Assembly: GCF_900188175.1 (NCBI RefSeq)
Contig: NZ_FZOQ01000002.1
Coordinates: 248,001 to 312,000 of the forward strand
DNA length: 64,000 nt
Direction of reading: 5' to 3'
Source of the DNA: Pontibacter ummariensis
Lineage (GTDB): Bacteria; Bacteroidota; Bacteroidia; Cytophagales; Hymenobacteraceae
The translations under genes and the position numbers were made by a program. Under the pieces are notes generated by a model. The model did no database searches and was not told the origin of the DNA. It saw only the letters and a list, made by a program, of their open reading frames with translations. Position 1 is the stretch's first letter. Every line of letters begins with the position of its first letter. Positions 27,540-40,511 of this stretch are shown here, one piece after another.

Positions 27540-28403
27540 TTAGCCTAAGTACGGCTTCAAGGCTTTGCTTCTGGATGTATGGCGAAGTCTGCGGATCGCT
27601 TTCTCCTTGATCTGACGTACGCGCTCGCGTGTCAGGTTAAACTTCTCGCCGATCTCCTCCAAAGTAAGAGAATGCTCACCGTTTAGTCCAAAGTACAGGG
27701 TAATGACATCAGCCTCGCGCTTGGTTAGGGTAGAAAGCGCACGCTGCACCTCTTTGCGCAGTGAGTCGTTCATCAAGCCCATGTCCGGCGACTCTTCGTC
27801 TTCGTTCTCGAGTACGTCCAAGAGGCGGTTCTCCTCTCCTTGCACGAAAGGAGCATCTACCGACACGTGACGACCAGAAATCTTCAGTGTGTCCACTACC
27901 TCAGCGGTAGTAAGTTCAAGCACTTCGGCGATCTCTTCAGGAGACGGCTCACGCTCAAACTTTTGCTCAAGCTCTGAGAAAGATTTAGAAATCTTGTTCA
28001 GGGACCCCACACGGTTCAGCGGCAGACGCACAATGCGTGACTGCTCTGCCAAAGCCTGCAGAATCGACTGGCGGATCCACCAAACAGCGTATGAGATAAA
28101 CTTAAAGCCTCGTGTCTCATCGAATCGCTTTGCAGCCTTGATGAGACCCAGGTTACCCTCGTTGATAAGGTCGCCCAAAGAAAGGCCCTGGTTCTGGTAC
28201 TGCTTTGCAACTGATACCACAAATCGAAGGTTGGCTTTTGTTAGCTTCTCAAGAGCAAACTGATCTCCCTCTCTAATTCTCTGCGCCAGCGACACCTCTT
28301 CGTCTGGAGTAAGCAAATCTACTTTACCAATCTCTTGTAAATATTTGTCAAGCGATTGGCTCTCACGGTTTGTAATCTGTTTGCTTATCTTGAGTTGTCT
28401 CAT
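27540..28403 (-). CDS. rpoD: Primary sigma factor RpoD/SigA
   Basis: A 287-residue group 1 sigma-70, the short form normal in Bacteroidota. It lacks region 1.1 and opens with [26 protein letters not shown] (region 1.2). Region 2 includes [45 protein letters not shown] and [10 protein letters not shown]. Region 3 includes [16 protein letters not shown]. Region 4 includes [29 protein letters not shown]. It should recognise the -33/-7 promoters listed here. Confidence 0.97.
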
Positions 28404-28476
28404 CAGAGTATAATGTTATAGCAAAAAATGTGAAAATTAAAAATTTGGCTTGGTGTCTGAACAACAGAAAATCGTG

Positions 28477-28507
28477 CAAAGTTCTGACATCCTTTAAATA
28501 TAATCAA
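28477..28507 (-). promoter_or_regulatory. Candidate promoter of rpoD
   Basis: Minus-strand TTG (28507-28505), a 20-bp spacer, then GAACTTTG (28484-28477), six of eight matches to TAnnTTTG, with a 73-bp gap to the start codon. Spacing is ideal but the -7 is imperfect. Confidence 0.4.
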
Positions 28508-28532
28508 GATGTGCAGGTGCAGCGACTAAAGA

Positions 28533-28577
28533 AACTCTTGGCACCATGTCTTTAACCAAAGCCAGGCACCAAGAGTT
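28533..28577 (-). terminator. Possible terminator of pnp
   Basis: AACTCTTGG (28533-28541) is complementary to CCAAGAGTT (28569-28577). The loop of 27 nt is long, and the minus-strand T-tract (TTTCTTTAG) is broken, so this is weaker than the other terminators. Confidence 0.4.
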
Positions 28578-28599
28578 CTAAAAATGTTAGAATATGCTA

Positions 28600-30738
28600 C
28601 TATTTCTGCTCAGATTCGCCAGGTTTAGGTAAGGCAGCTTTGCGAGACAACTTAAACTTACCTGTTTTCTTATCGATATCGATGAGTTTTACCTTCACTT
28701 CTTCTCCGATCTCCAGCACGCCGTCCATCGTTTCGAGGCGCTCGTGCTTGATCTCAGAAATATGCAGCAAGCCATCTTTGCCCGGCATAAACTCTACGAA
28801 GGCACCGTATGGCTGTACTGACTTCACCTTGCCGATGTACACTTCGCCTACTTCCGGCTGCGCCACAATGCCTTTGATCTTAGACACCGCACTGTTCATG
28901 GCATCCTGGTTGCTGGCGAAGATGTTTACGTGGCCTTTCTCATTCTTCTCTTCGATAATGATGGTCGCGCCCGTATCCTTCTGTATCTGCTGGATCACTT
29001 TACCGCCTGGTCCGATCACCGCACCGATAAACTCCTTATCGATTACCATGTTGAAGGAACGTGGGGTATGTGGTTTGTAGTCCGGGTTAGGAACTTCAAT
29101 GGTTTTAGCCATCTCATTCAGGATGTGCAGGCGTCCTGCATTTGCCTGCTGCAGCGCCTGGCTCAGGATCTCATACGATAAGCCACGCACCTTGATGTCC
29201 ATCTGGCAGGCGGTAATCCCGTCTTTTGTACCGGCTACTTTAAAGTCCATGTCGCCCAGGTGATCTTCGTCGCCTAGGATGTCAGACAATACCGCCCATT
29301 TTCCGGTCTCCGCGTCTGTGATCAGACCCATCGCAATACCGGAAACAGCGCCTTTTACCGGCACACCAGCGTCCATCAGCGCCAGGCTACCCGCACATAC
29401 GGTCGCCATAGAAGATGAGCCGTTTGACTCCAGAATGTCAGAAACGATACGGATGGTGTATGGATTCTCCTCTTCCGGCGGAAGCACTTTCTTCAGGGCA
29501 CGCAGGGCCAGGTTACCATGGCCTACTTCACGACGGCCTGGTCCGCGGTTTGGTCTTACCTCGCCGGTAGAGAAAGCCGGGAAGTTATAGTGCAATAAGA
29601 ATTTATTCGTACCGGATACCATGGCGCTGTCGATCATCTGCTCGTCCAGCTTGGTACCCAGGGTTACTGTAGTCAGGGACTGCGTTTCGCCACGGGTAAA
29701 GATGGCGGAACCGTGCGTGGCTGGCAGGTAGTTCACCTCTGTCCAGATCGGACGGATCTCGTCCAGCTTGCGGCCATCCAGGCGAACACGGTCATTCAGC
29801 ACCATGTTGCGCACCGCCTCTTTCTCCACGTCGTGGAAGTAAGTCTTGATCAGGCCCGTATCATAGGTGTGATCCTCTGGCAGCGAAGAAACGAACGCTT
29901 CTAAAACAGAGGCAAAGCCCTCTTTACGCTCTGCTTTGTTGGCGCTACCTCTTCTGGCTACTTCCAGTGCCTTTTCGTAGGTAGCGTCGTATACTTTCTG
30001 ACGAAGTTCTTCGTCGTGCGTCTCGTGCGAGTAGGTACGCTTCACTGTTTTCCCTACCATTTCGGCAAGGTCTAACTGTGCCTGGCACTGTACTTTGATG
30101 GCTTCGTGCGCAAACTGGATTGCCTCCAGCATTTCCGCCTCAGACACCTCGTTCATTTCACCTTCCACCATTACCACGCTGTCGATAGAAGCACCGATCA
30201 TCAGGTCAATGTCTGCCCGCTGCAGGTCTGTTACGTTCGGGTTGATCACGAGCTGGCCGTCAATACGCGCCACACGCACCTCAGAGATAGGGCCATTGAA
30301 AGGAATGTCGGACACGGCCAGGGCGGCAGAGGCAGCGAGCGCTGCCAAGGCATCCGGCATGATCTCTGTATCGGCAGAGATCAGGTTGATGGTCATTTGT
30401 GTTTCGGCATGGTAGTCATCCGGGAACAGCGGGCGCAGTACGCGGTCTACCAGGCGCGACACCAATACTTCATAGTCAGATAGTCTAGCTTCTCTTCTCA
30501 GGAAACCACCGGGGATTTTACCGGATGAGGCAAATTTCTCCTGGTAGTCAACCGAAAGTGGCAAGAAGTCCACCCCTTCACGGGCATCTTTGTTAGAAAC
30601 AACGGCTGCAAGCAGCATGGTATTTCCCATTTTCACTACCACAGAGCCGTCTGCCTGCTTGGCAAGCTTCCCAGTTTCAATTGTGATCTCCCGACCGTCC
30701 GGGAGCAGTATCGTTTTGTTAATCGCGTTGTATGGCAT
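28600..30738 (-). CDS. pnp: Polynucleotide phosphorylase
   Basis: Phosphorolytic 3'-5' exoribonuclease, 712 residues. It has two RNase PH domains (first [30 protein letters not shown]; second [31 protein letters not shown] with [24 protein letters not shown]). A KH domain follows ([22 protein letters not shown], about 560-620), then an S1 domain ([33 protein letters not shown], about 625-695). It is complete, and lies downstream of rpsO as in most bacteria, with a terminator between them. Confidence 0.98.
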
Positions 30739-30827
30739 CTTCAGTTTTCTTTAACATCAAAAAGACAGGGCTACCCATTGTGGCCGCTGTCGGTATTGGC
30801 AATAGAGGAAGGGAAGGGGGTGCTATA

Positions 30828-30865
30828 AAAAAGATTAGGGAATTCCTGACTAAAGAATTCCCTAA
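30828..30865 (-). terminator. Terminator/attenuator between rpsO and pnp
   Basis: TTAGGGAATTC (30835-30845) and GAATTCCCTAA (30855-30865) form a perfect 11-bp stem. The minus strand then reads TCTTTTTTAT. It lies 16 bp after the rpsO stop, so pnp transcription depends on read-through or its own promoter. Confidence 0.8.
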
Positions 30866-30880
30866 CAAAGTATAAGCAGC

Positions 30881-31156
30881 TTACTTACGGATACCTAGCT
30901 CGGCAATAATCGCTCTGTATCGCTCAATATTGTTTTTCTGCAGGTAGTTCAGCAATCTTCTTCTCTTACCTACAAGCTTCAGAAGGCCAAGACGCGTGCT
31001 GAAGTCCTTTTTGTGAACTTTCAGGTGCTCTGTCAGGTCAGCGATGCGCGTCGTGAAAAGCGCAATCTGTGATTCTGCTGATCCTGTATCAGCCTTTGTC
31101 TTCGCGAAGCCGTGCTTTTCGAAAATTTCTTGTTTCGCTTCAGTGGTTAATTTCAT
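30881..31156 (-). CDS. rpsO: 30S ribosomal protein S15
   Basis: Small-subunit protein binding 16S rRNA, 91 residues, within the family range. Signature segments are [49 protein letters not shown]. The C-terminus [12 protein letters not shown] is also typical. It precedes pnp on the same strand. Confidence 0.98.
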
Positions 31157-31209
31157 TGCGTAAAAATATCAATCTAGGTTTTATCTTGCCACTCTTATTA
31201 TACAAGCCA

Positions 31210-31217
31210 CAAAGGTA
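31210..31217 (-). promoter_or_regulatory. Candidate -7 element of rpsO
   Basis: Minus-strand TACCTTTG, an exact TAnnTTTG match 53 bp before the start codon. A TTG lies 15 bp upstream, shorter than the usual 19-21. Confidence 0.45.
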
Positions 31218-31268
31218 TATAAATTACTTTTACAAAAAAATATTTACTTCATCTTTGTAGGGCAACTG

Positions 31269-32681
31269 CTACAGTTTGTTGCGGCGCAGGCGCGTCACCA
31301 GCTTACGCCAGAAGTCTACTTCCAGTAAGCTGGAATCGCTGCGGGCCTGGTACAGGAAGAAAAGGCCGATCGGCAACAGGACCATGTTGGCGGCCCAGAG
31401 CCCCGCTCCCACCGGCACGATGCCTTCCCGGGCCCACTTCTCCCCTAGTATCGACATCACATACATAAAGATGAAGAACATAATGGAGATGAGCACCGGC
31501 ACGCCGAGCCCTCCCTTTTTAATGATTGCTCCCAGGGGTGCCCCGATCAGGAACATAATGATAATAGCGGCTGACTGCGTGTACTTTTTCCAGATCTCAA
31601 TTTCGTAGTTATTGGCATCGCGCAGGGTGTTGTTCAGGCGCTCCACATAACTCGCCGTAAAGCTTTTGATGTTACGGGCCTTGTTCGTGGCCATGGCCAG
31701 TACCTCAGGGGTGGGCTTGGGCAGTTCCCGCTCCAGTGCCTTGCCCGTTAAACGTAAGCCGTTCTTCACGCTGCCGGTGTCGGCCTTAAAGTACATGTAA
31801 AACGGATCCACGTTCGGGGCATAGCGTGTTTCCTCACGGTCGGTATAGCGGCGCAGGGAGTCCGTCACCACCTTCAACTGTGAGATGTTCTTCATCATCT
31901 TATTGTCGGAGAAGAGCTCTTCGCGGGTACGGTCCAAGTTAAAGGAGGCCATGGACAGAACAATCTTGCTTTCGTCAAAGCGCTGGCGGGCAAACTGGTC
32001 GTTCGTGTTTCGGAAAGAGGCGTCGTTCTGGTCGATGTACGTATTGCCCCGGAATAACTCCAGGATGAGGTAATTGTCGTCGTAGGCCATGTACATCTCA
32101 CCGGAGTCTGCCAGGATAACCGTGGTATTGGCCCCGCCCTTGGAGTGGTCGTAGATCATCACGTCGCGCAGCGTCTGCCCGTCGTTCAGCTTTTCGTTCA
32201 CCTTAATGCTGTACCCCGGAATACCGTTGTAAAAGGCCCCCTCCTTAAAGTTCATGGCGGGTTTCTTCTGCCGGATGTCCCACAGCAGGCTATAGGCCTT
32301 TAGGTTGGCCTTCGGAACAATGTTGTTGTTGAAGAAAAAGGCGCCGATGGTGAGCAGCGACACAGCGATAAACACAGGGCGCAGGATGCGGGTAAGGGGG
32401 ATGCCGGCTGTTTTGATTGCCGTGAGTTCGTGGTGCTCGCCCAGTGTACCAAAGGTCATAAGCGCTGACAGCAGCACGGCCAAGGGCAAGGCCACAGGCG
32501 CCATGTTCATACTGAAGTAAAACAGAAGCTCAGCAAACACCTCGGCTCCCAGGTCCTTCCCTACGAGCTCATCAAGGTACTTGAGCATGTACTGGGTGAG
32601 CAGTATGAACTCCACCACAGCGAATGTAAGTAAGAAGGGTCCTAAAAAGGCCCGAAGGATTAGCTTATCTAGTTTCTTCAT
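31269..32681 (-). CDS. LptF/LptG family permease
   Basis: Inner-membrane subunit of the LptBFG exporter that feeds lipopolysaccharide to the periplasmic bridge. I used the ATG at 32681 (MKKLDKLILRAFLGPFLLTFAVVEFIL); the frame also opens 24 bp earlier. The family layout is seen: two N-terminal helices (LLTFAVVEFILLTQYMLKYL; APVALPLAVLLSALMTFGTLGEHHELTAIKTAGI), a third (VFIAVSLLTIGAFFF), a periplasmic jellyroll in the middle, and three C-terminal helices (AAIIIMFLIGAPLGAIIKKGGLGVPVLISIMFFIFMYVMSI, ANMVLLPIGLFFLYQA). It cannot be assigned to LptF or LptG from sequence alone. Confidence 0.92.
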   Translation of the reverse strand: MKKLDKLILRAFLGPFLLTFAVVEFILLTQYMLKYLDELVGKDLGAEVFAELLFYFSMNMAPVALPLAVLLSALMTFGTLGEHHELTAIKTAGIPLTRILRPVFIAVSLLTIGAFFFNNNIVPKANLKAYSLLWDIRQKKPAMNFKEGAFYNGIPGYSIKVNEKLNDGQTLRDVMIYDHSKGGANTTVILADSGEMYMAYDDNYLILELFRGNTYIDQNDASFRNTNDQFARQRFDESKIVLSMASFNLDRTREELFSDNKMMKNISQLKVVTDSLRRYTDREETRYAPNVDPFYMYFKADTGSVKNGLRLTGKALERELPKPTPEVLAMATNKARNIKSFTASYVERLNNTLRDANNYEIEIWKKYTQSAAIIIMFLIGAPLGAIIKKGGLGVPVLISIMFFIFMYVMSILGEKWAREGIVPVGAGLWAANMVLLPIGLFFLYQARSDSSLLEVDFWRKLVTRLRRNKL

Positions 32682-32779
32682 GAGCAAAAAGCGGCGGTAT
32701 ACCAAAGTGATAACCCGCCTAAGCCTTGCTTAAGTTTCTCAAAAATCATGCAAAGATAAGCTTTCGGTACAGAAGCCTA

Positions 32780-33184
32780 CTATCCTCCCACTATTTCACG
32801 CAAATTTTGCATCAGGTTGTCCCAGAGTTCCTCCAGTTCCTCCACGTCCTCCTCTTCGGTATAGTCCACCACCTTCAGGAATTGCTCCTGGGTTAGTTCG
32901 CTTGCCTCGATAGAGAAGTCGATATAAGAGGCGTCCGGCGTCGTGTTCTTATTCTGGTCCAGGAACAGGAAGCGCACCGAGCGGTTGGTGCGGTGGCTGG
33001 TCATCTCGGCAAAATGGTTGCGGCCGTCCCAGAAAAAATTGTATACTTTGTCCTCGTCCACGTTCACTTCGTCGCAAAACCATTGGGCCAGGCCGCTTGC
33101 TGTAGAGAGATAAGGGTAAAGAAGTTTTGCGGAAGCATTGATCGGGTACTCCCGAACAAATTTTGTCTTCGTAGCTCTCGTCAT
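32780..33184 (-). CDS. START-like (SRPBCC) domain protein
   Basis: A 134-residue cytoplasmic protein of the AHSA1/START-like fold. The N-terminal strand KFVREYPINASAKLLYPYLSTASGLAQWFCDEVNV is characteristic of a conserved small family in Cytophagales and Flavobacteriales. It ends with the acidic helix TEEEDVEELEELWDNLMQNLREIVGG. The fold often binds hydrophobic ligands, but no ligand is known for this family. It is a single gene upstream of the LPS permease, about 100 bp apart on the same strand. Confidence 0.85.
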   Translation of the reverse strand: MTRATKTKFVREYPINASAKLLYPYLSTASGLAQWFCDEVNVDEDKVYNFFWDGRNHFAEMTSHRTNRSVRFLFLDQNKNTTPDASYIDFSIEASELTQEQFLKVVDYTEEEDVEELEELWDNLMQNLREIVGG

Positions 33185-33277
33185 AATCAGGCTGTCTAAG
33201 TGTCTGAGTAAGTATAGTGTTTATTCTCCAAAGAATGTATATCTGAAAAATAAAATATTTTTTTTAGGAAAAGACGC

Positions 33278-33309
33278 TTGCATATTTCGAAATCTATCCG
33301 CTATATTTG
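33278..33309 (+). promoter_or_regulatory. Promoter of tRNA-Met
   Basis: TTG (33278-33280), a 21-bp spacer and TATATTTG (33302-33309), an exact TAnnTTTG, ending 11 bp before the mature tRNA. It is the best promoter match in the window. Confidence 0.75.
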
Positions 33310-33320
33310 CACCACAATTC

Positions 33321-33394
33321 GGCGGGGTAGCTCAGATGGTTAGAGCGCAGGATTCATAACCCTGAGGTCGGCAGTTCGATTCTGCTCCCCGCTA
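33321..33394 (+). tRNA. tRNA-Met (CAT)
   Basis: A 74-nt cloverleaf: acceptor GGCGGGG (33321-33327) with CCCCGCT, where the terminal pair is G-U. D-stem GCTC/GAGC, anticodon CAT in the loop TTCATAA, anticodon stem CAGGA/CCCTG with an A-C mismatch next to the loop, and T-stem GGCAG/CTGCT with loop TTCGATT. No CCA is encoded. The standard G/C-rich initiator features are missing, so it is an elongator Met tRNA. A TilS-modified Ile tRNA with CAT cannot be excluded without comparison to the other CAT tRNAs in the genome. Confidence 0.9.
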
Positions 33395-33402
33395 CTAGAA
33401 GA

Positions 33403-33434
33403 AAAAGGCTTGCTGGTAACCCGGCAAGCCTTTT
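33403..33434 (+). terminator. Terminator of tRNA-Met (hairpin copy 1)
   Basis: AAAAGGCTTGCTGG (33403-33416) pairs with CCGGCAAGCCTTTT (33421-33434), loop TAAC. The core AAAGGCTTGCTGG recurs at 34873. Confidence 0.85.
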
Positions 33435-33722
33435 CTGCTTTACAGCCCTTCCCTGCTCTCCTTTTGTGGGTACTCCGCGCCTTCTTTAAGATGAGGAGCA
33501 TTCTGCTACCTCTAACAGGCTTAGTACAGGCCGTCGCAACACAGGCTAAAGCACAAGGGGCATAAGTCAGCATAGCCTTTTCTTTGAAACCAAACGACAG
33601 CCTACACTTAGAAGCAGCAAGGAGGATGCGTGGCAAGCAGGTTATCAATAGAAAAAGTTGCGGTATGGAATTACTTTCTTAATTTTTCGCTTCTTTATGG
33701 AGTTAAGACAAGACACCATCTC
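33435..33722 (+). other. Region between tRNA terminator and first STAS-like gene
   Basis: No credible gene. A frame from GTG 33630 joins the downstream gene but adds 31 residues without family resemblance, so I treat it as 5' region. No direct repeat of the tRNA 3' end was seen. Confidence 0.4.
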
Positions 33723-34133
33723 ATGATTATTCCCAATCCAATTATCAAACTAGATTATAATCCAGCCCAGGATGTTCTGGTTGTGGAGTGGCCTGACGTA
33801 CACGAATATACAACAAGCCAGGCAGCCTATACCCTGGACATTATTGTTGAAACAGTAAAGCTGTACGATGTAAAGTACCTTCTCACAGACACGAGAAACG
33901 GTATTATTGATATCCCGGAAGCAAAGTACAAGGCGCTAATTCTAAGCTTTGCAAAGAGCCTGGCAACCACCCGCTTAAAGAAACTGGCACGGGTAGTAAC
34001 AGCAAGCACACTACGCGAGAAACCTATTAACGAGGTCCGCCGAGAAGCACAGCTTGCAGTCCCGATTAAAAGCTTCGACAATGCGGAGGAGGCCCTGGCT
34101 TGGCTGGTGTCCGAAAAGTATGAACTCTCCTAA
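33723..34133 (+). CDS. STAS/SEC14-like domain protein, copy A
   Basis: A 136-residue cytoplasmic protein from ATG 33723 (MIIPNPIIKLDYNPAQDVLVVEWPDV...). The pattern is alpha/beta: strands LDYNPAQDVLVVEW and VKYLLTDTRNGIIDI, a helix FAKSLATTRLKKLARVV, and a final IKSFDNAEEALAWL. This resembles STAS/SEC14-fold small proteins found in environmental Bacteroidota; the assignment is from pattern only. It is a paralogue of the gene at 35366: shared DYxPxxDxL, PDVxE, YDxKxLLxD and TRLxKLARV. No phosphorylatable STAS Ser is evident. The function is unknown. Confidence 0.65.
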   Translation: MIIPNPIIKLDYNPAQDVLVVEWPDVHEYTTSQAAYTLDIIVETVKLYDVKYLLTDTRNGIIDIPEAKYKALILSFAKSLATTRLKKLARVVTASTLREKPINEVRREAQLAVPIKSFDNAEEALAWLVSEKYELS

Positions 34134-34183
34134 CTTAGCAGCCCGGAACATCTACACTGTTAAATAACGCTGAAAAGCGAACC

Positions 34184-34216
34184 AGCCAGGTAGTGCAATA
34201 GCACCTCCTGGCTTTT
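34184..34216 (+). terminator. Terminator after STAS-like copy A
   Basis: AGCCAGG (34184-34190) with CCTGGCT (34207-34213), an inner AGTGC/GCAC extension and TTTTATATTTT afterwards. Confidence 0.7.
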
Positions 34217-34272
34217 ATATTTTGTAGGTATTCATGAGAGGAATACGGAACGCAGGGAACTCGCAAAAAACA

Positions 34273-34305
34273 AAAAGGATGCACCACCCTTAAGTGCACC
34301 CTTTT
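34273..34305. terminator. Second hairpin after STAS-like copy A
   Basis: AAAAGGATGCAC (34273-34284) pairs with GTGCACCCTTTT (34294-34305) with one mismatch. A-rich before and short T-run after; it could work in either direction. Confidence 0.55.
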
Positions 34306-34588
34306 AGCATTCCTATGTCTGGTATAACGTAGGCAATCATAAATGGTTATCTCAGCTTATTCCAGCACCCCTGCTGCTTCTGTTACTTTCCGTTAACAGA
34401 AATTTATTCCTTGCAACGACTCCCCCATTACGTAGAGCCAGCGATGAAAAGTATTTGTAGCCCACCCAGTTGAAAAGACCGCTGCCTCTAAGCAAACTTA
34501 AAATTCTTAGCGCTGAACAAATACGGATTATAAATATAAATACGTAGTTTTATGCCCCTGTATTTATACTTACCATATTACCGTTCCT

Positions 34589-34828
34589 ATGAGCGAATTA
34601 AAGGAATTTTTAGACAAGCTGAGCGCTTGTGATTGCAATCTGGTTGTGCTAACGCTAATTAGTGCGAATCGGGTGTACTGCCGCCTTTTTAAAGACGGAC
34701 AGTACATAGACAGAGTGTTTGTAAACGACCCGCTGATAGTAACAGAGCTTTATAAGCTCTGCGGTAGAGGAGAAGAAATAGATGCCGATGGGATCGCCAA
34801 GCTTCGACAGAAGTTTATAGCAGTTTAA
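34589..34828 (+). CDS. Hypothetical small protein (79 aa)
   Basis: Not recognised. 79 residues beginning MSELKEFLDKLSACDCNLVV. Two predicted helices (ELKEFLDKL; ADGIAKLRQKFI) flank a beta-rich centre (NLVVLTLISANRVYCRLFKDGQYIDRVFVND). A Cys-x-Cys pair (ACDCN) occurs early, and there is no signal peptide or membrane segment. It ends 45 bp before a hairpin terminator. The codon use and amino-acid pattern look genuinely coding. It sits between two paralogous STAS-like genes; a functional link is only a guess. Confidence 0.6.
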   Translation: MSELKEFLDKLSACDCNLVVLTLISANRVYCRLFKDGQYIDRVFVNDPLIVTELYKLCGRGEEIDADGIAKLRQKFIAV

Positions 34829-35365
34829 GAAGCCAGGACCCGGCTGTTGCTGTAGCCGCTAAACACATCATAAAAGGCTTGCTGGTTATTCCAGCAAGCC
34901 TTTGTGCTTCTAACTGCCCCCAGAGAGACCCAGTAACAAGAAAGCCAGACAGCACCCTACTGCAAAGAGGAAAGTGACAAAAAATAAGTTTAAATTTCAA
35001 CCCATTAGCTTATTGACCTTCCGTGTGTTACGTATAATACTTGTTGCTTTGCCATAGCGCGCCACCGCTAGTACACGGTGCTCAGGAGCTAAACCGCCTG
35101 TACAACCCGGCATGCACAGGACACTAAACCAAGCCGCCCTAACGACGGGAGGCTTCCAGGCATACACGTGAAGAGCCGGCTAGCTAGTTGCAGCTCACCT
35201 GTGGCAACTTACTTTGAAAGCTGCTGCAGATATATTATTTACAGTTTGCTTACCTAAACCTGAAATTTCCGTAAGCCGCTTTACATTGCCTTTCACAACT
35301 GAGGCGCTTCGTGTCGTATTGTTTTAATGCCGTAGAAGGGATTTCTTCACGCTACAATTTACCAG
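34829..35365. other. Intergenic, no gene seen except hairpin
   Basis: 537 bp. A hairpin near the left end (listed separately) would terminate the 79-residue gene. The rest shows no frame longer than about 30 codons with coding character. Confidence 0.5.
34873..34903 (+). terminator. Terminator-like hairpin (copy 2 of the tRNA terminator core)
   Basis: AAAGGCTTGCTGG (34873-34885) and CCAGCAAGCCTTT (34891-34903) form a perfect 13-bp stem, the same sequence as the tRNA-Met terminator at 33403-33434. The T-run is short (TTTGTG). Confidence 0.7.
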
Positions 35366-35782
35366 ATGCTGATTTATAACGGAATCATTACCCTCGACTA
35401 CGACCCAACAACAGACATCCTGGCAACCAGCATGCCTGACGTACGGGAGTTCGCGTTCCCGGAAGTAAGCTTTTGCCTGGGCCTGATCGTGGATAACGTG
35501 CGGGTGTACGACATCAAAAAGCTCTTGCTCGACTCCAGTAAATCAGTAATAGAAGTGGAAGACGAAGCTTATAAAGCTATCACCACCAAGTTTGCGATGG
35601 ACTTAATGGGAACACGCCTGCAGAAACTGGCCCGGGTAGGAACTGTAGACCTAAAGCGGGAGGAAAAGTCCACTAAACTGTCTGCGGAGCTTAGGCAGGA
35701 ACTGAACCTGCCGATGGAGTTTAAAAACTTCACGAGCAGGGCTGAAGCCATGGACTGGCTTTTGTCCCTGGAGCGGGTATAA
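35366..35782 (+). CDS. STAS/SEC14-like domain protein, copy B
   Basis: A 138-residue paralogue of the gene at 33723. It begins MLIYNGIITLDYDPTTDILA. Shared with copy A are DYxPxxDxL, PDVxEF, YDIKKLLLD (copy A YDVKYLLTD), TRLQKLARV (copy A TRLKKLARV) and a terminal AEAMDWLLS (copy A AEEALAWLVS). The region after the second strand (SSKSVIEVEDEAY) differs, so the two are diverged rather than recent duplicates. There is no export signal. The fold assignment is by pattern only and the function is unknown. It is followed 160 bp later by a leader/small-protein pair. Confidence 0.65.
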   Translation: MLIYNGIITLDYDPTTDILATSMPDVREFAFPEVSFCLGLIVDNVRVYDIKKLLLDSSKSVIEVEDEAYKAITTKFAMDLMGTRLQKLARVGTVDLKREEKSTKLSAELRQELNLPMEFKNFTSRAEAMDWLLSLERV

Positions 35783-35943
35783 GCATAGGCATCGTTTGAT
35801 CCTTACCGGTGCTTCCCGCTGCCCTGAAAAACCATACTGCAACATCTTACGCCCTATAGCCCCCTCTCCTAAGCTTAGGCCTATACCCTAGTACTTTAAC
35901 AGTAGGCTAGCACAAACACGTAGCTAAAAAGCAGTATTTATCC

Positions 35944-36009
35944 ATGAATTATTTACCTGATCGCGAGGTTACCTTTGTTCTTGAAGAGAAGGATACAGAA
36001 AAGGTATGA
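35944..36009 (+). CDS. 21-codon leader ORF coupled to the next gene
   Basis: ATG at 35944 opens MNYLPDREVTFVLEEKDTEK and ends with Val then TGA at 36007-36009. The stop overlaps the ATG of the next gene (36006) in an ATGA. Such overlaps normally mean translational coupling. The peptide is charged and not obviously a membrane toxin or an amino-acid-rich attenuator. It could be a leader, a real microprotein or the remnant of a longer gene. Confidence 0.4.
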   Translation: MNYLPDREVTFVLEEKDTEKV

Positions 36010-36275
36010 CCGATAAGAGCTGGAAAACATTTGAAGATTATGAGCAGCTGTTACAGCAGGGCCTGATCACGTGCTTCGCGGTGTATTTTAAGAACAAAGG
36101 CTTGCTGCTGACAGCAATAGATGGCCCGGAGGAGGAAGTACCTTTACCTGAAGACATGCTCCAGTCTGTAACCATCTATTTCTACGGCTTAGGCTCGGTT
36201 TCTTATGGCACTAGTGATTATGATAGCCTGAAAAGTCTGCTAAATACCCGTACCATACTGAAGAAGTTACTGTAA
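36006..36275 (+). CDS. Hypothetical small protein (89 aa)
   Basis: Not recognised. 89 residues starting MTDKSWKTFEDYEQLLQQGL. Visible features are an N-terminal helix (SWKTFEDYEQLLQQ), beta-rich stretches (ITCFAVYFKNKGLLLTAIDG and VTIYFYGLGSVSYG), an acidic Pro-containing loop (GPEEEVPLPED) and a C-terminal helix (YDSLKSLLNTRTILKKLL). No signal peptide is present. It begins in the ATGA overlap with the 21-codon ORF. The small protein at 34589 occupies the equivalent place after STAS-like copy A, but I could not align the two with confidence. Confidence 0.6.
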   Translation: MTDKSWKTFEDYEQLLQQGLITCFAVYFKNKGLLLTAIDGPEEEVPLPEDMLQSVTIYFYGLGSVSYGTSDYDSLKSLLNTRTILKKLL

Positions 36276-36376
36276 AAGGAGCAGCAATAAAGAAGAACAG
36301 ACACAAACAACTCGCTTGTATAAGGAAATTTGCCAAAGAGCTGCTACACAGCAAACCGGCATTTTACGCCAGGGCA

Positions 36377-36786
36377 CTATCCTTCTTTCCGTTTGTCGGC
36401 CAGGGTTGACTGCGCCAGTAATTCCCTGAGCCGCTCAATGTCTACCTTCATCTCCTCTCCCAACAAAGGCACTGTCTTCAAGATCACCTGCAAAGCTTAG
36501 GGACTTTTCTGCTGGTAGCAATGTTTCAGCAGTTCATAGCCAACCCCCCCCTGCCCCTCCTTGTTTAAGGCGGGGAGCTTGTTCTTTCTGCCATAACTGC
36601 AGCGGCGCCGTTGCTTCCGTTCCTCTCATGAAAGAGGTCAAAGCAAGCTTCTAGCCCTTGCTTTAACACGGGCAGCTTTAGGAGAAATCTTCTTATGAAT
36701 ATCTCCACAGGCGATCACCCCCACCCCAAGCGGGCCCTCTGCTGCTCCTCTTAGGGCACGTCCCTATTCATCGTGCTTTTCGGCAT
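36377..36786 (-). pseudogene. Decayed minus-strand gene, unrecognised
   Basis: From ATG 36786 a single frame reads MPKSTMNRDVP, stop, EEQQRARLGWG, stop, then SPVEIFIRRFLLKLPVLK, QGLEACFDLFHERNGS and NGAAAVMAERTSSPP to a stop at 36565. Past a run of eight C (36544-36551), another frame continues YELLKHCYQQKSP, stop (TAA at 36497-36499), ALQVILKTVPLLGEEMKVDI, ERLRELLAQSTLADKRKEG and a final stop at 36377. The amino-acid pattern looks coding, so I infer one old gene with three nonsense codons and a frameshift at the homopolymer. The family is not recognised. Sequencing error in the C-run would explain only the frameshift. Confidence 0.4.
36540..36585 (+). repeat. GC-rich palindromic repeat, copy 1
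   Basis: Reads CCAACC, a C-run, TGCCCCTCCTTGTTTAAGG, CGGGGAGCTTGTTC. It is near-identical, in inverted orientation, to copy 2 at 36824-36867. Each copy can fold (CCCCTCCTT against AAGGcGGGG). It resembles the short REP-like elements with a CCCCTCCTT...AAGGAGGGG core that I know to be scattered in Bacteroidota genomes. Confidence 0.65.
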
Positions 36787-36823
36787 GAACTCAAACTATA
36801 GAAATTTACCTTTATTAAAGTAG

Positions 36824-36867
36824 TAACAGAACTCCCCTCCTTAGGCAAGGAGAGCAGGGGTGGTTGG
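36824..36867 (-). repeat. GC-rich palindromic repeat, copy 2 (inverted)
   Basis: Minus strand reads CCAACCACCCCTGCTCTCC, TTGCCTAAGGAGGGGAGTTC, matching copy 1 with a few substitutions and one length difference in the C-run. It folds CTCCCCTCC/GG..GGGG imperfectly. The two copies are 238 bp apart and face each other. Confidence 0.65.
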
Positions 36868-37002
36868 ATAACAACTACACAAACCGTTCGTCAAGCCCCT
36901 TAAAACAAGCATCTTCCACCTCCTTGCCCGTCTTTAAAAATCCTGATTCAACTGTCTCCGTACATACAAAACTGAATTAACAGGACGTAAAAATTAGAGC
37001 AC

Positions 37003-38601
37003 ATGAAGGACCAACAATACTTATGGTGGCAAAAAGGACTCGTGTATCAGGTATACCCCCGATCTTTCCAGGACAGTGACGGAGATGGGGTTGGTGATTT
37101 AAAGGGCATCATTCAAAGGTTAGACTACCTGAAATGGCTGGGTATCACTGCTGTGTGGGTTTCGCCTATTTACCCCTCCCCAATGGCGGACTACGGCTAC
37201 GACATCTCTGACTACCAGGGCATTCACCCGCTGTTTGGCACGATGGAGGATTTTGACCAGCTGCTGGAGGAGGTACATAAGCGCGATATGAAGCTTATCC
37301 TAGACCTGGTGCCCAACCACACCTCCAACGAGCACCCCTGGTTCCTGGAGTCCCGCTCCTCCCGCAACAACCCGAAACGGGACTGGTATATCTGGGAAGA
37401 TCCCAAGGAAGACGGGAGCGAGCCCAATAACTGGCTGGCTGTGTTTGGCGGCAGCGCCTGGGAATGGGACGAGAAAACAGAACAGTACTACTATCATGCC
37501 TTTCTGAAAGAGCAACCCGACCTGAACTGGCGTAACCCGGAAGTGCAACAAGCCATGTTCGAGGTGATGCGTTTCTGGCTGGATAAGGGGGTAGACGGTT
37601 TCCGGGTAGACGTGATGTGGCACATGATCAAAGACAAGCAACTGCGGGACAATCCGCCTAACCCAAACTATCAGCCGCAACAGTCCACCTACGAGCAGGT
37701 AATACCCGCTTACTCTACGGATCAACCAGAAGTACACGATATCGTAGCCATGATGCGCGAGGTGATGAATAAATATGACGAGCGGGTGCTGATTGGAGAA
37801 ATTTACCTGCCTATCCACCGCCTGGTAACCTATTATGGACAGGATAACCAGGGCGCACACCTACCCTTCAACTTCATGCTCATTACCCTCGACTGGAATG
37901 CCAGAACCCTTACCTCCCACATAGATGAGTACGAGGCGGCCATACCGGAAGGCGGTTGGCCTAACTGGGTAATTGGTAACCACGACAAACCGCGTATCAC
38001 CAGCAGGGTAGGACAGGCACAGGCCAAAGTAGCGGGCATGCTGCTCTTAACCCTGCGCGGGACCCCTACCCTGTACTATGGCGACGAACTGGGTATGCGC
38101 GATGTGCCGATTCCGCCCGACGAGGTACAGGACCCACAGGGTCTGAACATGCCCGACAAGAACCTGAGCCGCGACCCTGCCCGTACCCCGATGCAATGGG
38201 ACACGAGTGAAAACGCTGGCTTTACGTCCGGAAAGCCCTGGTTACGCCTGCCAGCCAACTATAAGCGCGTAAACGTGGAAGTGCAGAAAGAAGACCCCTA
38301 CTCCTTCCTGTCCTTTTACCACAGACTGATCAAATTACGCCAGGAAGAACCGGCGCTGCATGTAGGAGACTATGTACCGGTTGTAACGGACGGACCGCTA
38401 CTGGCCTTTATCCGCGAACATGAAGAGAAGAGGTTCCTTATTGTCCTGAACTTGAGTCATAAACCTTCGATCTTTAGTCCTAAAAACATCTCTTATAAAG
38501 GGAAAGTAATACTAGCTACCGAGTCGGACCTGGAAAACAACAGGATAGAAGGTGTCATTACGATGGGTGGCGACGAAGGGCTGTTGATACAGTTGGATTA
38601 A
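37003..38601 (+). CDS. GH13 alpha-glucosidase
   Basis: Retaining glycoside hydrolase of 532 residues without signal peptide, so cytoplasmic. GH13 regions: DLVPNHTSNEHPWF (101-114), nucleophile Asp203 in GFRVDVMWH, acid/base Glu266 in VLIGEIYLP, and Asp328 in VIGNHDKPR. The N-terminal YQVYPRSFQDSDGDGVGDLKGI, together with a Val after the nucleophile Asp, matches oligo-1,6-/alpha-1,4-glucosidase-type enzymes acting on short maltooligosaccharides, and the C-terminal beta-domain is present. It is separated by 59 bp from treZ, suggesting a joint transcript for using and converting glucans. Precise linkage preference is not readable. Confidence 0.9.
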   Translation: MKDQQYLWWQKGLVYQVYPRSFQDSDGDGVGDLKGIIQRLDYLKWLGITAVWVSPIYPSPMADYGYDISDYQGIHPLFGTMEDFDQLLEEVHKRDMKLILDLVPNHTSNEHPWFLESRSSRNNPKRDWYIWEDPKEDGSEPNNWLAVFGGSAWEWDEKTEQYYYHAFLKEQPDLNWRNPEVQQAMFEVMRFWLDKGVDGFRVDVMWHMIKDKQLRDNPPNPNYQPQQSTYEQVIPAYSTDQPEVHDIVAMMREVMNKYDERVLIGEIYLPIHRLVTYYGQDNQGAHLPFNFMLITLDWNARTLTSHIDEYEAAIPEGGWPNWVIGNHDKPRITSRVGQAQAKVAGMLLLTLRGTPTLYYGDELGMRDVPIPPDEVQDPQGLNMPDKNLSRDPARTPMQWDTSENAGFTSGKPWLRLPANYKRVNVEVQKEDPYSFLSFYHRLIKLRQEEPALHVGDYVPVVTDGPLLAFIREHEEKRFLIVLNLSHKPSIFSPKNISYKGKVILATESDLENNRIEGVITMGGDEGLLIQLD

Positions 38602-38660
38602 CGTTCATTTTCTTAAATTTTAAAAGCCCGATAGTATAAGAACTGCTTCGGGGTCAGCAT

Positions 38661-40511
38661 ATGAAAATAGTAGGCGCTGAATACACCGGTAACGGCCATT
38701 GCCGCTTTACCGTGTGGGCACCAGAGAAAGAGCGCATGGTTTTGCACCTGGTGCAGCCGGAAGACCGATTAGTAGAAATGGATCGCGCCACGTGGGGCTA
38801 CTTTACAGTAGAGCTGGACAACCTATACCCTGGTGCCCGCTATTTTTACAGGCCTGAGGGTGAAAAGGACTACCCCGATCCTGCCTCTTATTATCAGCCG
38901 GAGGGGGTGCACGGCCCTTCGGAGGTGATAGACCATGCCAGCCACCTTTGGCGCGACACGAGTTGGCAGAACCTGCCCCTGCAGGACCTGGTGTTATACG
39001 AGCTCCATGTAGGCACTTTTACCCCGGAGGGTACCTTCGAAGCCATTATTCCCCGGCTGGAGGAACTGAAGGAAACAGGGATCAACGCCCTCGAGCTCAT
39101 GCCCGTAGCGCAGTTCCCCGGAGACCGGAACTGGGGCTACGATGGCACTTACCCCTATGCCGTACAACAGTCCTATGGCGGACCGGAAGGATTGAAGAAA
39201 CTGGTAGATGCCTGCCACGCGCAGGGGATAGCCGTTTTCCTGGACGTTGTGTACAACCACCTGGGGCCGGAAGGGAACTACCTGGAGCAGTATGGCCCCT
39301 ACTTTACCGACAAGTACAAAACGCCCTGGGGCAAGGCCATCAACTTTGACGGTCCTTACTCAGACGGTGTGCGGGAGTACTTCTCCAACAATCCCCTTTA
39401 CTGGCTGGAACACTACCACCTGGATGGGCTGCGGCTGGATGCTATCCACATGATCTTCGACCAGAGCGCCACTTCTATCTGGGAGCTGATGCGCAGCAAG
39501 GTGCAGGACATCACACAGCAGATGCACCGCCCCTTTTACCTTATTGCCGAGAGCAACCTGAATGCCCCACGCGTGGTGCAGAAAACAGAACTGGGTGGCT
39601 ATGGCTTCGACGCCCAATGGCTCGACGACTTTCACCACGCCCTGTACGTGTTACTGGATAAAGCAGGGCTGAAGTTCTATGAGGACTACGGCAAGATGGA
39701 GCAACTGGCCAAGGCCTTTGCCGAAGGATTTGTACACAGTGGCGAGTTCGTAAAGTTCCGGAAGCGCACCTTCGGGGCCTCCTCTGCCGGCGTGCCCGGC
39801 GATTGTTTTGTGGCCTTTACCCAGAACCACGACCAGGTGGGCAACCGCATCGAGGGCGAGCGCCTCACGCAGCTTGTTGGCTTTGAGCGTTTGAAGTTAG
39901 CTGCCGCAGCCCTGCTCGTTTCCCCCTACATCCCGATGCTCTTTATGGGCGAAGAGTACGGCGAGGAAGCCCCTTTTCTCTACTTCGTAAGCCATTCAGA
40001 TAAAGAGCTGGTCAAGGCCGTGCAGAAAGGGCGCAAAGAGGAGTTCGCGAATTACAAGTGGGAAGGAGACCCACCCGACCCGCAGGCGGAGCAAACGTTT
40101 AAGAAATCGAAGCTGAACTGGGAGCAGCGTGGACAAGGCAAGCATGCTCTTTTACGAGACTGGTACCAGGCGCTGATCGGCTTGCGCCGCCGGGAACCCG
40201 CGCTATCGAACTACAACAAAGCAGACGTACAGGTGCAGACCCTGGGACAGGAAGGCCTCGTACTGCTCCGTCAGGACAGAATCGATGATCAGGAGGTATT
40301 GTGTCTATTTAACTTCTCGGAGCAGACCATCCCTTTCAGCATGCCCCAGAGTAGCACCACCTGGCATAAACTGCTGTACTCAAAAGACCAACAGTGGCTG
40401 GAGCAAGAAGGTGCTGAGGCTGCCCCTGCAGAAGAGACCCTAACAGCCGGGCAGCACATAGAACTACCGGCCCTTGCTGTACTGTTGTACAGCAATTATA
40501 CCAGTATGTAA
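38661..40511 (+). CDS. treZ: Malto-oligosyltrehalose trehalohydrolase
   Basis: Releases trehalose from maltooligosyl-trehalose (TreY/TreZ route). The 616 residues match. The N-terminal CBM48-like domain ([27 protein letters not shown]) is followed by the GH13_10 catalytic domain: [23 protein letters not shown], nucleophile Asp260 in [13 protein letters not shown], acid Glu297 in YLIAESNLN, and Asp391 in [11 protein letters not shown]. The signatures [14 protein letters not shown] and [14 protein letters not shown] are diagnostic of TreZ rather than a branching enzyme. The partner TreY is not found in the window. It is convergent with the TreS-like gene; their stops are 4 bp apart. Confidence 0.95.

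Follow-up and report, generated by a model that had tools for sequence, protein, structure and literature searches.

Two paralogues beside a tRNA-Met gene of Pontibacter ummariensis belong to a lineage-expanded family of predicted STAS fold, part of which has recurrent H-NOX neighbours

The window analysed here is a 64,000-nucleotide stretch of the Pontibacter ummariensis genome (contig NZ_FZOQ01000002.1, positions 248,001 to 312,000, forward strand). Within it, four plus-strand genes lie between a tRNA-Met (33321..33395, plus strand, identified by tRNA search and Rfam) and an open reading frame at 37003-38601, presumably a GH13-type gene, that bounds the block downstream. These are STAS-like protein A (33723..34133, 136 aa), small protein 1 (34589..34828, 79 aa), STAS-like protein B (35366..35782, 138 aa) and small protein 2 (36006..36275, 89 aa). 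A sequence-only reading of this DNA had described two diverged paralogues with a small protein after each, and the description held at these coordinates: A and B are 41% identical over 134 aa (E 5e-35 in a single comparison), and the open reading frames of 79 and 89 aa follow A and B, respectively. The interval given in that reading stops at 35782 and omits the small protein 2 gene. Four of the five motifs quoted as shared are indeed found in both A and B; the fifth, AExAxxWL, is present in A only, the form common to both being EAxxWL. Protein A was assigned from the paralogue alignment, the tree and a sub-threshold PF11964 match of 19.6 bits, and B from the alignment, the tree and a model with a predicted STAS fold. 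An upstream GTG at 33630 could serve as an alternative start of A; 33723 is the one that agrees with how B and the other relatives align.

The small proteins, called as open reading frames with homologues, represent two lineage-restricted families, that of small protein 1 being multi-copy. Protein-level matches (E 0.01) were found for small protein 1 in 19 of 59 genomes and for small protein 2 in 16 of 59, and in the genes compared replacement differences were well below synonymous ones, which were mostly saturated. Such relatives, together with the low level of replacement differences, argue at the sequence level that A, B and both small proteins are all real genes. Between the two small proteins, no similarity was found. 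The model of small protein 1 (pLDDT 84.7, from a two-row alignment) gave no convincing match in the PDB, the best Foldseek E being 0.12 and the best VIA Z 4.7.

The spacing of the four genes is not operon-like, with gaps of 455 nt between A and small protein 1, 537 nt between small protein 1 and B, and 223 nt between B and small protein 2. Hairpins are present after the tRNA, after A and after small protein 1, and none was seen between B and small protein 2. The one 3' of A (34183..34223, plus strand) is terminator-like with a T-rich tail (-25.3 kcal/mol for 34165-34230), and the one 3' of small protein 1 (34873..34906, plus strand) is terminator-like with a short T tail (-23.7 kcal/mol for 34865-34912). 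Both were spotted by eye, then folded, and are absent from the list of a pattern scan that returned 15 terminator-like sites versus 5.0 in shuffles and 5 promoter-like sites versus 5.3. Given the three hairpins, A is probably transcribed separately from small protein 1, and small protein 1 separately from B. Upstream of small protein 2 there is a match to what we take to be the Bacteroidetes-type -7 element, without the -33 part. At the gathering score, Rfam found the tRNA alone in 28000-40000. Two of the hairpins, at 34872-34903 (after small protein 1) and 33403-33433 (after the tRNA), are 87.5% alike over 32 nt.

All 16 syntenic relatives lack any family or small-protein gene in the interval from the START-domain gene to the GH13 gene. 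The stretch 33454..36955 gave no blastn match (E 1e-3) to any of them: their nucleotide similarity to the window ends at 33395-33453 and, in a comparison whose query included just the first 98 nt of the downstream gene, returns in 13 of the 16 at the start of that gene or just behind it (in one case two bases early), in another relative at 36956, and never in two (L309 and L311). The GC content of 33437-37002 is 46.2%, versus 49.5-53.6% in 14 of the 16 4-kb bins of the window. Among 30 START-gene loci compared with 1.5 kb flanks, such genes were found only at the window's own locus and in genome G006, where the same tRNA-Met is followed by a 101-aa open reading frame, a small protein 1 gene and an outer-family STAS-like gene. 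Since the block is absent from the relatives and has this parallel in G006, the tRNA-Met site looks like a place where STAS and small-protein genes accumulate. Self-comparison of the locus revealed no copy of the tRNA end. A defence or phage origin was rejected, with 0 PADLOC matches at E 0.1 and a single PHROGs match at E 0.07 that was judged to be noise.

Genes related to A and B are found well beyond this locus. The family is multi-copy in Pontibacter, Rufibacter and Adhaeribacter, and the relatives found by sequence carry the names Pontibacter, Rufibacter, Adhaeribacter, Sabulibacter and Botryobacter. With B as the query, 36 of 59 genomes were matched (34 of 37 within the genus), and a profile search matched 97 of 200 genomes of the taxonomic family, including all 50 of the genus. 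Matches at E <=1e-20 occurred in 47 of these 50 and in 26 genomes of three other genera; the remaining 21 matched genomes, from two further genera, gave weak matches only. The highest copy count was 18 matches in one genome, at a loose cut-off and with outer copies included. Among 174 full-length copies, compared after five partial domains had been set aside, the median identity of detected pairs was 33%.

We defined the inner family as copies scoring more than 100 bits against our own profile, a cut-off of our choosing. A tree was built from 131 inner members, with 30 of its 128 inner branches open. In it, A falls into a supported clade of six rows and B into supported clades of six and nine, apart from that of A, and both have closer relatives in other genomes than in each other. 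Judging from these separate supported clades, A and B are old paralogues that meet here and not the product of a recent tandem duplication. A same-strand neighbour within 150 nt was present for 56 of 133 inner copies, A and B included, or for 42 of 133 counting neighbours outside the family, with neighbour genes called by a longest-ORF rule instead of a gene finder; thus, for most inner copies no operon is evident. In genome G001, STAS-like genes occur as identically arranged tandem triplets both on the main contig (C1, L092) and on a second contig of 116 kb (C2, L093).

The small proteins were then considered as possible partners. Small protein 1 has 29 other copies in the 59 genomes, and 9 of these have a STAS-like gene within 1.5 kb, counting one outer-family copy and one weak fragment that a stricter search did not list (8 without the fragment). 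For small protein 2, this applies to 3 of 18 other copies, and the STAS-like gene is in all three an outer-family copy or a fragment. With 4,500 genes assumed per genome, we estimate from the copy numbers that about 0.2 and 0.12, respectively, would be expected by chance. The association of small protein 1 with STAS-like genes in general is real. The sequence-only reading had named conserved adjacency in other genomes as a check of its module; general proximity was seen for small protein 1, but the proposed order was not supported. STAS followed by small protein 1 within 500 nt on one strand was found at 2 of the 29 other loci, and STAS followed by small protein 2 within 500 nt at none of 18. 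Where pairs exist, the reverse order is commoner, with small protein 1 upstream of the STAS-like gene on the same strand within 150 nt at 6 of the 29 loci; the two genes overlap by 4 nt in L161 and lie 2 nt apart in L154.

These close arrangements, and the succession of small protein 1 and an outer-family STAS-like gene behind the same tRNA-Met in G006, would fit an old functional pair of small protein 1 and the STAS-like gene that follows it, of which small protein 1 and B would be a loosened copy. We regard such a pair as unlikely: 20 of the 29 copies of small protein 1 are without a STAS-like gene within 1.5 kb (one flank being cut by a contig end), the partner is a fragment in two of the six close cases (L064 and L077), and the gap of 537 nt at the present locus contains a hairpin.

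The STAS/SEC14-like fold proposed from the sequence was recovered in the predicted structure of B, whose best alignments were to RsbS and SpoIIAA. The AlphaFold model, built with 63 aligned sequences (pLDDT 82.2, pTM 0.79), aligned best by VIA-align to Bacillus subtilis RsbS (Z 12.7, rmsd 2.4 over 114 residues), followed by the Listeria stressosome (11.6), SpoIIAA (about 10-11), 2q3l, a SpoIIAA-like protein of solved structure (9.3), and, near background, a SEC14 protein (8.1). Foldseek alone gave nothing below E 0.001 for this model, its best match being an anti-sigma factor antagonist complex (E 2.7e-3); SiaC and CD38, in high rows of its output, had an rmsd of at least 6 Å and were set aside. 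A sequence search against solved structures reached E 0.17 at best. Like A, B scored below the 25-bit gathering cut-off of PF11964, the SpoIIAA-like family of Pfam (15.4 bits), which was matched by 8 of the 63 aligned family members at E 0.01.

The family nevertheless has features of the SpoIIAA-like kind. Among 189 distinct inner-family members (241 copies, merged where the last 110 residues were identical), positions 89, 122, 128, 131 and 132 (Ala/Phe/Ala/Trp/Leu) are conserved in 182-187, with a near-invariant C-terminal Phe (186), Ala (187), Trp (186) and Leu (182). This Ala/Phe/Ala/Trp/Leu cluster corresponds to the second of the conserved clusters described for the solved SpoIIAA-like pair 2q3l and 2ook, the one by which helix 4 is packed on the sheet (PMC2954212). 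The likeness of fold to PF11964, Z 9.3 to 2q3l, is taken from the predicted model of B alone, and the family of A and B differs in falling below the Pfam cut-off, in conserved positions of its own, in a polar helix 3 and in recurrent H-NOX neighbours in part of the family. On the predicted fold, it is a lineage-expanded STAS-fold group outside the Pfam SpoIIAA-like cut-off but of that kind.

STAS-like single domains of other bacteria take part in phospho-regulated partner switching, which the sequence-only reading had brought up for A and B. The acceptor position at the start of helix 2, located from the register of the sequences and not from a structural alignment of single residues, is nine residues beyond the Asp at the end of strand 3. 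It is occupied by Pro in A and by Glu in B, which gives such switching no support in these two proteins. With RsbS, B shares a single-domain STAS fold and has its best structural match; A and B differ from it in having no acceptor Ser, and the same genome encodes a separate rsbR/S/T-like cluster on another contig. The RsbS-like protein of this genome has, by eye, Asp-Ser at the acceptor position. The cluster is located at 72.3-75.6 kb of contig C52 (L409), where genes that we take to be rsbR, rsbS and rsbT are accompanied by a SpoIIE-type gene; a further STAS-like copy (C52:48871) is located about 24 kb away.

One could still imagine A and B as proteins of the anti-anti-sigma type, with the serine kinase and SpoIIE-type phosphatase that switch them encoded at other loci. 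The fold is nearest to that of RsbS, 62 of the 189 distinct inner-family members have Ser or Thr at the acceptor position, and besides the rsbR/S/T-like cluster, searches of the whole genome at E 1e-4 matched HATPase_c_2 15 times (9 of them above the cut-off) and SpoIIE 3 times. We nevertheless judge such a switch improbable, and as a leading idea for A and B it was rejected on account of the missing acceptor residue. The residues of the family at this position resemble ordinary helix caps, and none of the kinase and phosphatase matches is on the contig of the window, in agreement with the earlier remark that no kinase or phosphatase is nearby (the search covered HATPase_c_2 and SpoIIE). Most SpoIIAA-like members are reported to have Glu or Asp in place of the acceptor Ser (PMC2954212). 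With the acceptor residue missing, we infer that A and B may bind partners without this switch.

For the solved Shewanella SpoIIAA-like pair, a role as carrier of lipids or other hydrophobic ligands, with SEC14/CRAL-TRIO-like open and closed states, has been proposed (PMC2954212), and the fold matches of B to 2q3l and, near background, to the SEC14 protein would allow the same for A and B. This is even less probable: helix 3 is on average polar in the aligned family (mean Kyte-Doolittle -0.81, with 32% of residues charged), in contrast to the Leu, Trp, Val and Phe listed for the Shewanella lid, and the GxLxH motif cited by the same source is missing from A and B. Finally, the idea in the sequence-only reading of a two-gene module of a STAS protein and the small protein after it, duplicated in tandem, can be set aside as very improbable, for despite the 9 of 29 copies of small protein 1 near a STAS-like gene and the abutting genes in L161 and L154, the small proteins share no similarity, A and B belong to different clades, hairpins follow A and small protein 1, and the proposed order recurs at just 2 of 29 and 0 of 18 loci.

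The one clear partner in the flanks of the fetched family copies was H-NOX (PF07700, E 6.2e-30 for L117). In the 107 regions compared, H-NOX accounted for 7 of 177 immediate neighbours versus 1 of 634 genes three or more genes away (p 1.4e-4), with orthologous regions counted separately and neighbour genes below 100 aa excluded. The 50 Pontibacter genomes contain 46 H-NOX genes, in 28 genomes, and 12 of the 46 directly follow an intact inner-family gene of the same strand at a distance of 19-85 nt, where about 0.1 would be expected by chance, by a rough estimate made in the same way as for the small proteins. Three further H-NOX genes have only pieces of a family gene in the upstream spot; without an intact copy directly upstream are 34 of the 46. 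H-NOX open reading frames below 190 bits were omitted from the adjacency table, their genes remaining in the 46, and two H-NOX rows of genome G151 were counted as one gene. Outside the genus, the 26 genomes of three other genera with strong family matches include 14 with H-NOX (21 genes in total), and an intact family gene is directly adjacent on the same strand in 5 of the 21, all in the genus g27, which, judging from matching coordinates, includes Rufibacter hautae. Loci duplicating the same genes (e.g. L359/L425, L332/L187, L318/L316) were not added to the counts of 46 and 21. The YxSxR motif is kept in all 46 distinct H-NOX sequences of at least 170 aa, shorter open reading frames being excluded from this count. 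A histidine kinase was rejected as a general partner: kinase-like genes made up 11 of 177 immediate neighbours versus 16 of 634 farther genes (p 0.03), a weak signal obtained with one query kinase.

Close relatives of both proteins take part in this pairing. In P. diazotrophicus a 71% relative of B sits 67 nt upstream of an H-NOX gene, and in P. silvestris a 62% relative of A sits 32 nt downstream of one. Among the fetched copies, one of the five relatives of B at 68% identity or more is H-NOX-paired, and the five relatives of A at 55% or more include one direct neighbour of H-NOX and another with H-NOX within 3 kb. The H-NOX adjacency of one close relative each of A and B hints at function. 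A and B themselves have no adjoining H-NOX gene, and no STAS-like gene was found within about 4.9 kb of the single H-NOX gene of this genome (contig C65). H-NOX is lacking in 22 of the 50 Pontibacter genomes, and 21 of these 22 have strong family members; thus, H-NOX cannot be the only partner.

Our main reading, to which we assign a probability of roughly 45%, is that A and B, two scattered members of a single-domain STAS family that has expanded in Pontibacter and its neighbours, most likely serve as small non-catalytic subunits, adaptors or antagonists, that would bind a sensory partner. Such binding would not depend on a phosphorylation switch of the usual kind. In part of the family this partner is probably H-NOX, the heme gas sensor whose gene directly adjoins that of the STAS-like protein. 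Since A and B stand alone in this genome, any partner would be met in trans, and small proteins 1 and 2 would be separate genes. A precedent for single-domain STAS proteins that act by partner binding is MlaB, for which phospho-control is unproven; its partner is an ABC ATPase, and it has no fifth strand and last helix, both of which are present in the model of B (PMC7367683 for MlaB). A heme sensor linked to STAS proteins is also found in the O2-sensing stressosome of Vibrio brasiliensis, in which a heme globin is fused to a STAS domain and an RsbT kinase takes part (PMC4976288). In the pairs described here, H-NOX is instead encoded by a gene of its own next to the STAS-like gene, with no kinase as a regular companion.

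A bolder and somewhat doubtful extension of this reading is that the family might provide H-NOX with a partner of a new class, a STAS adaptor that would relay the heme gas signal (NO or O2) independently of phosphorylation in Pontibacter and Rufibacter, with A and B listening in trans to H-NOX or related sensors. If true, one gas sensor would fan out to many STAS paralogues. Bacterial H-NOX sensors act via histidine kinases and cyclic-di-GMP enzymes. The pairing of H-NOX with a stand-alone STAS protein, if real, would be another output route, tying gas sensing to the stressosome fold. We found no description of such a pairing among the open-access papers searched, most subscription papers lying outside that search. 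The role of the family, with its many fast-diverging copies per genome, can now be tested on the copies linked to H-NOX.

Several minor observations were made around the H-NOX genes. In P. silvestris (L187/L332), Rufibacter glacialis (L359/L425) and genome G064 of g27 (L422), H-NOX lies between two same-strand inner-family genes, and outer-family copies are near H-NOX at some loci. Copies of small protein 1 were seen on the opposite strand at 643 nt (L269/L406) and 203 nt (L273/L350) from H-NOX genes. An open reading frame with a constant length of 167 aa occurs near the H-NOX genes of L342, L343, L361 and L365, and the two copies scanned, those of L342 and L365, match a GAF domain.
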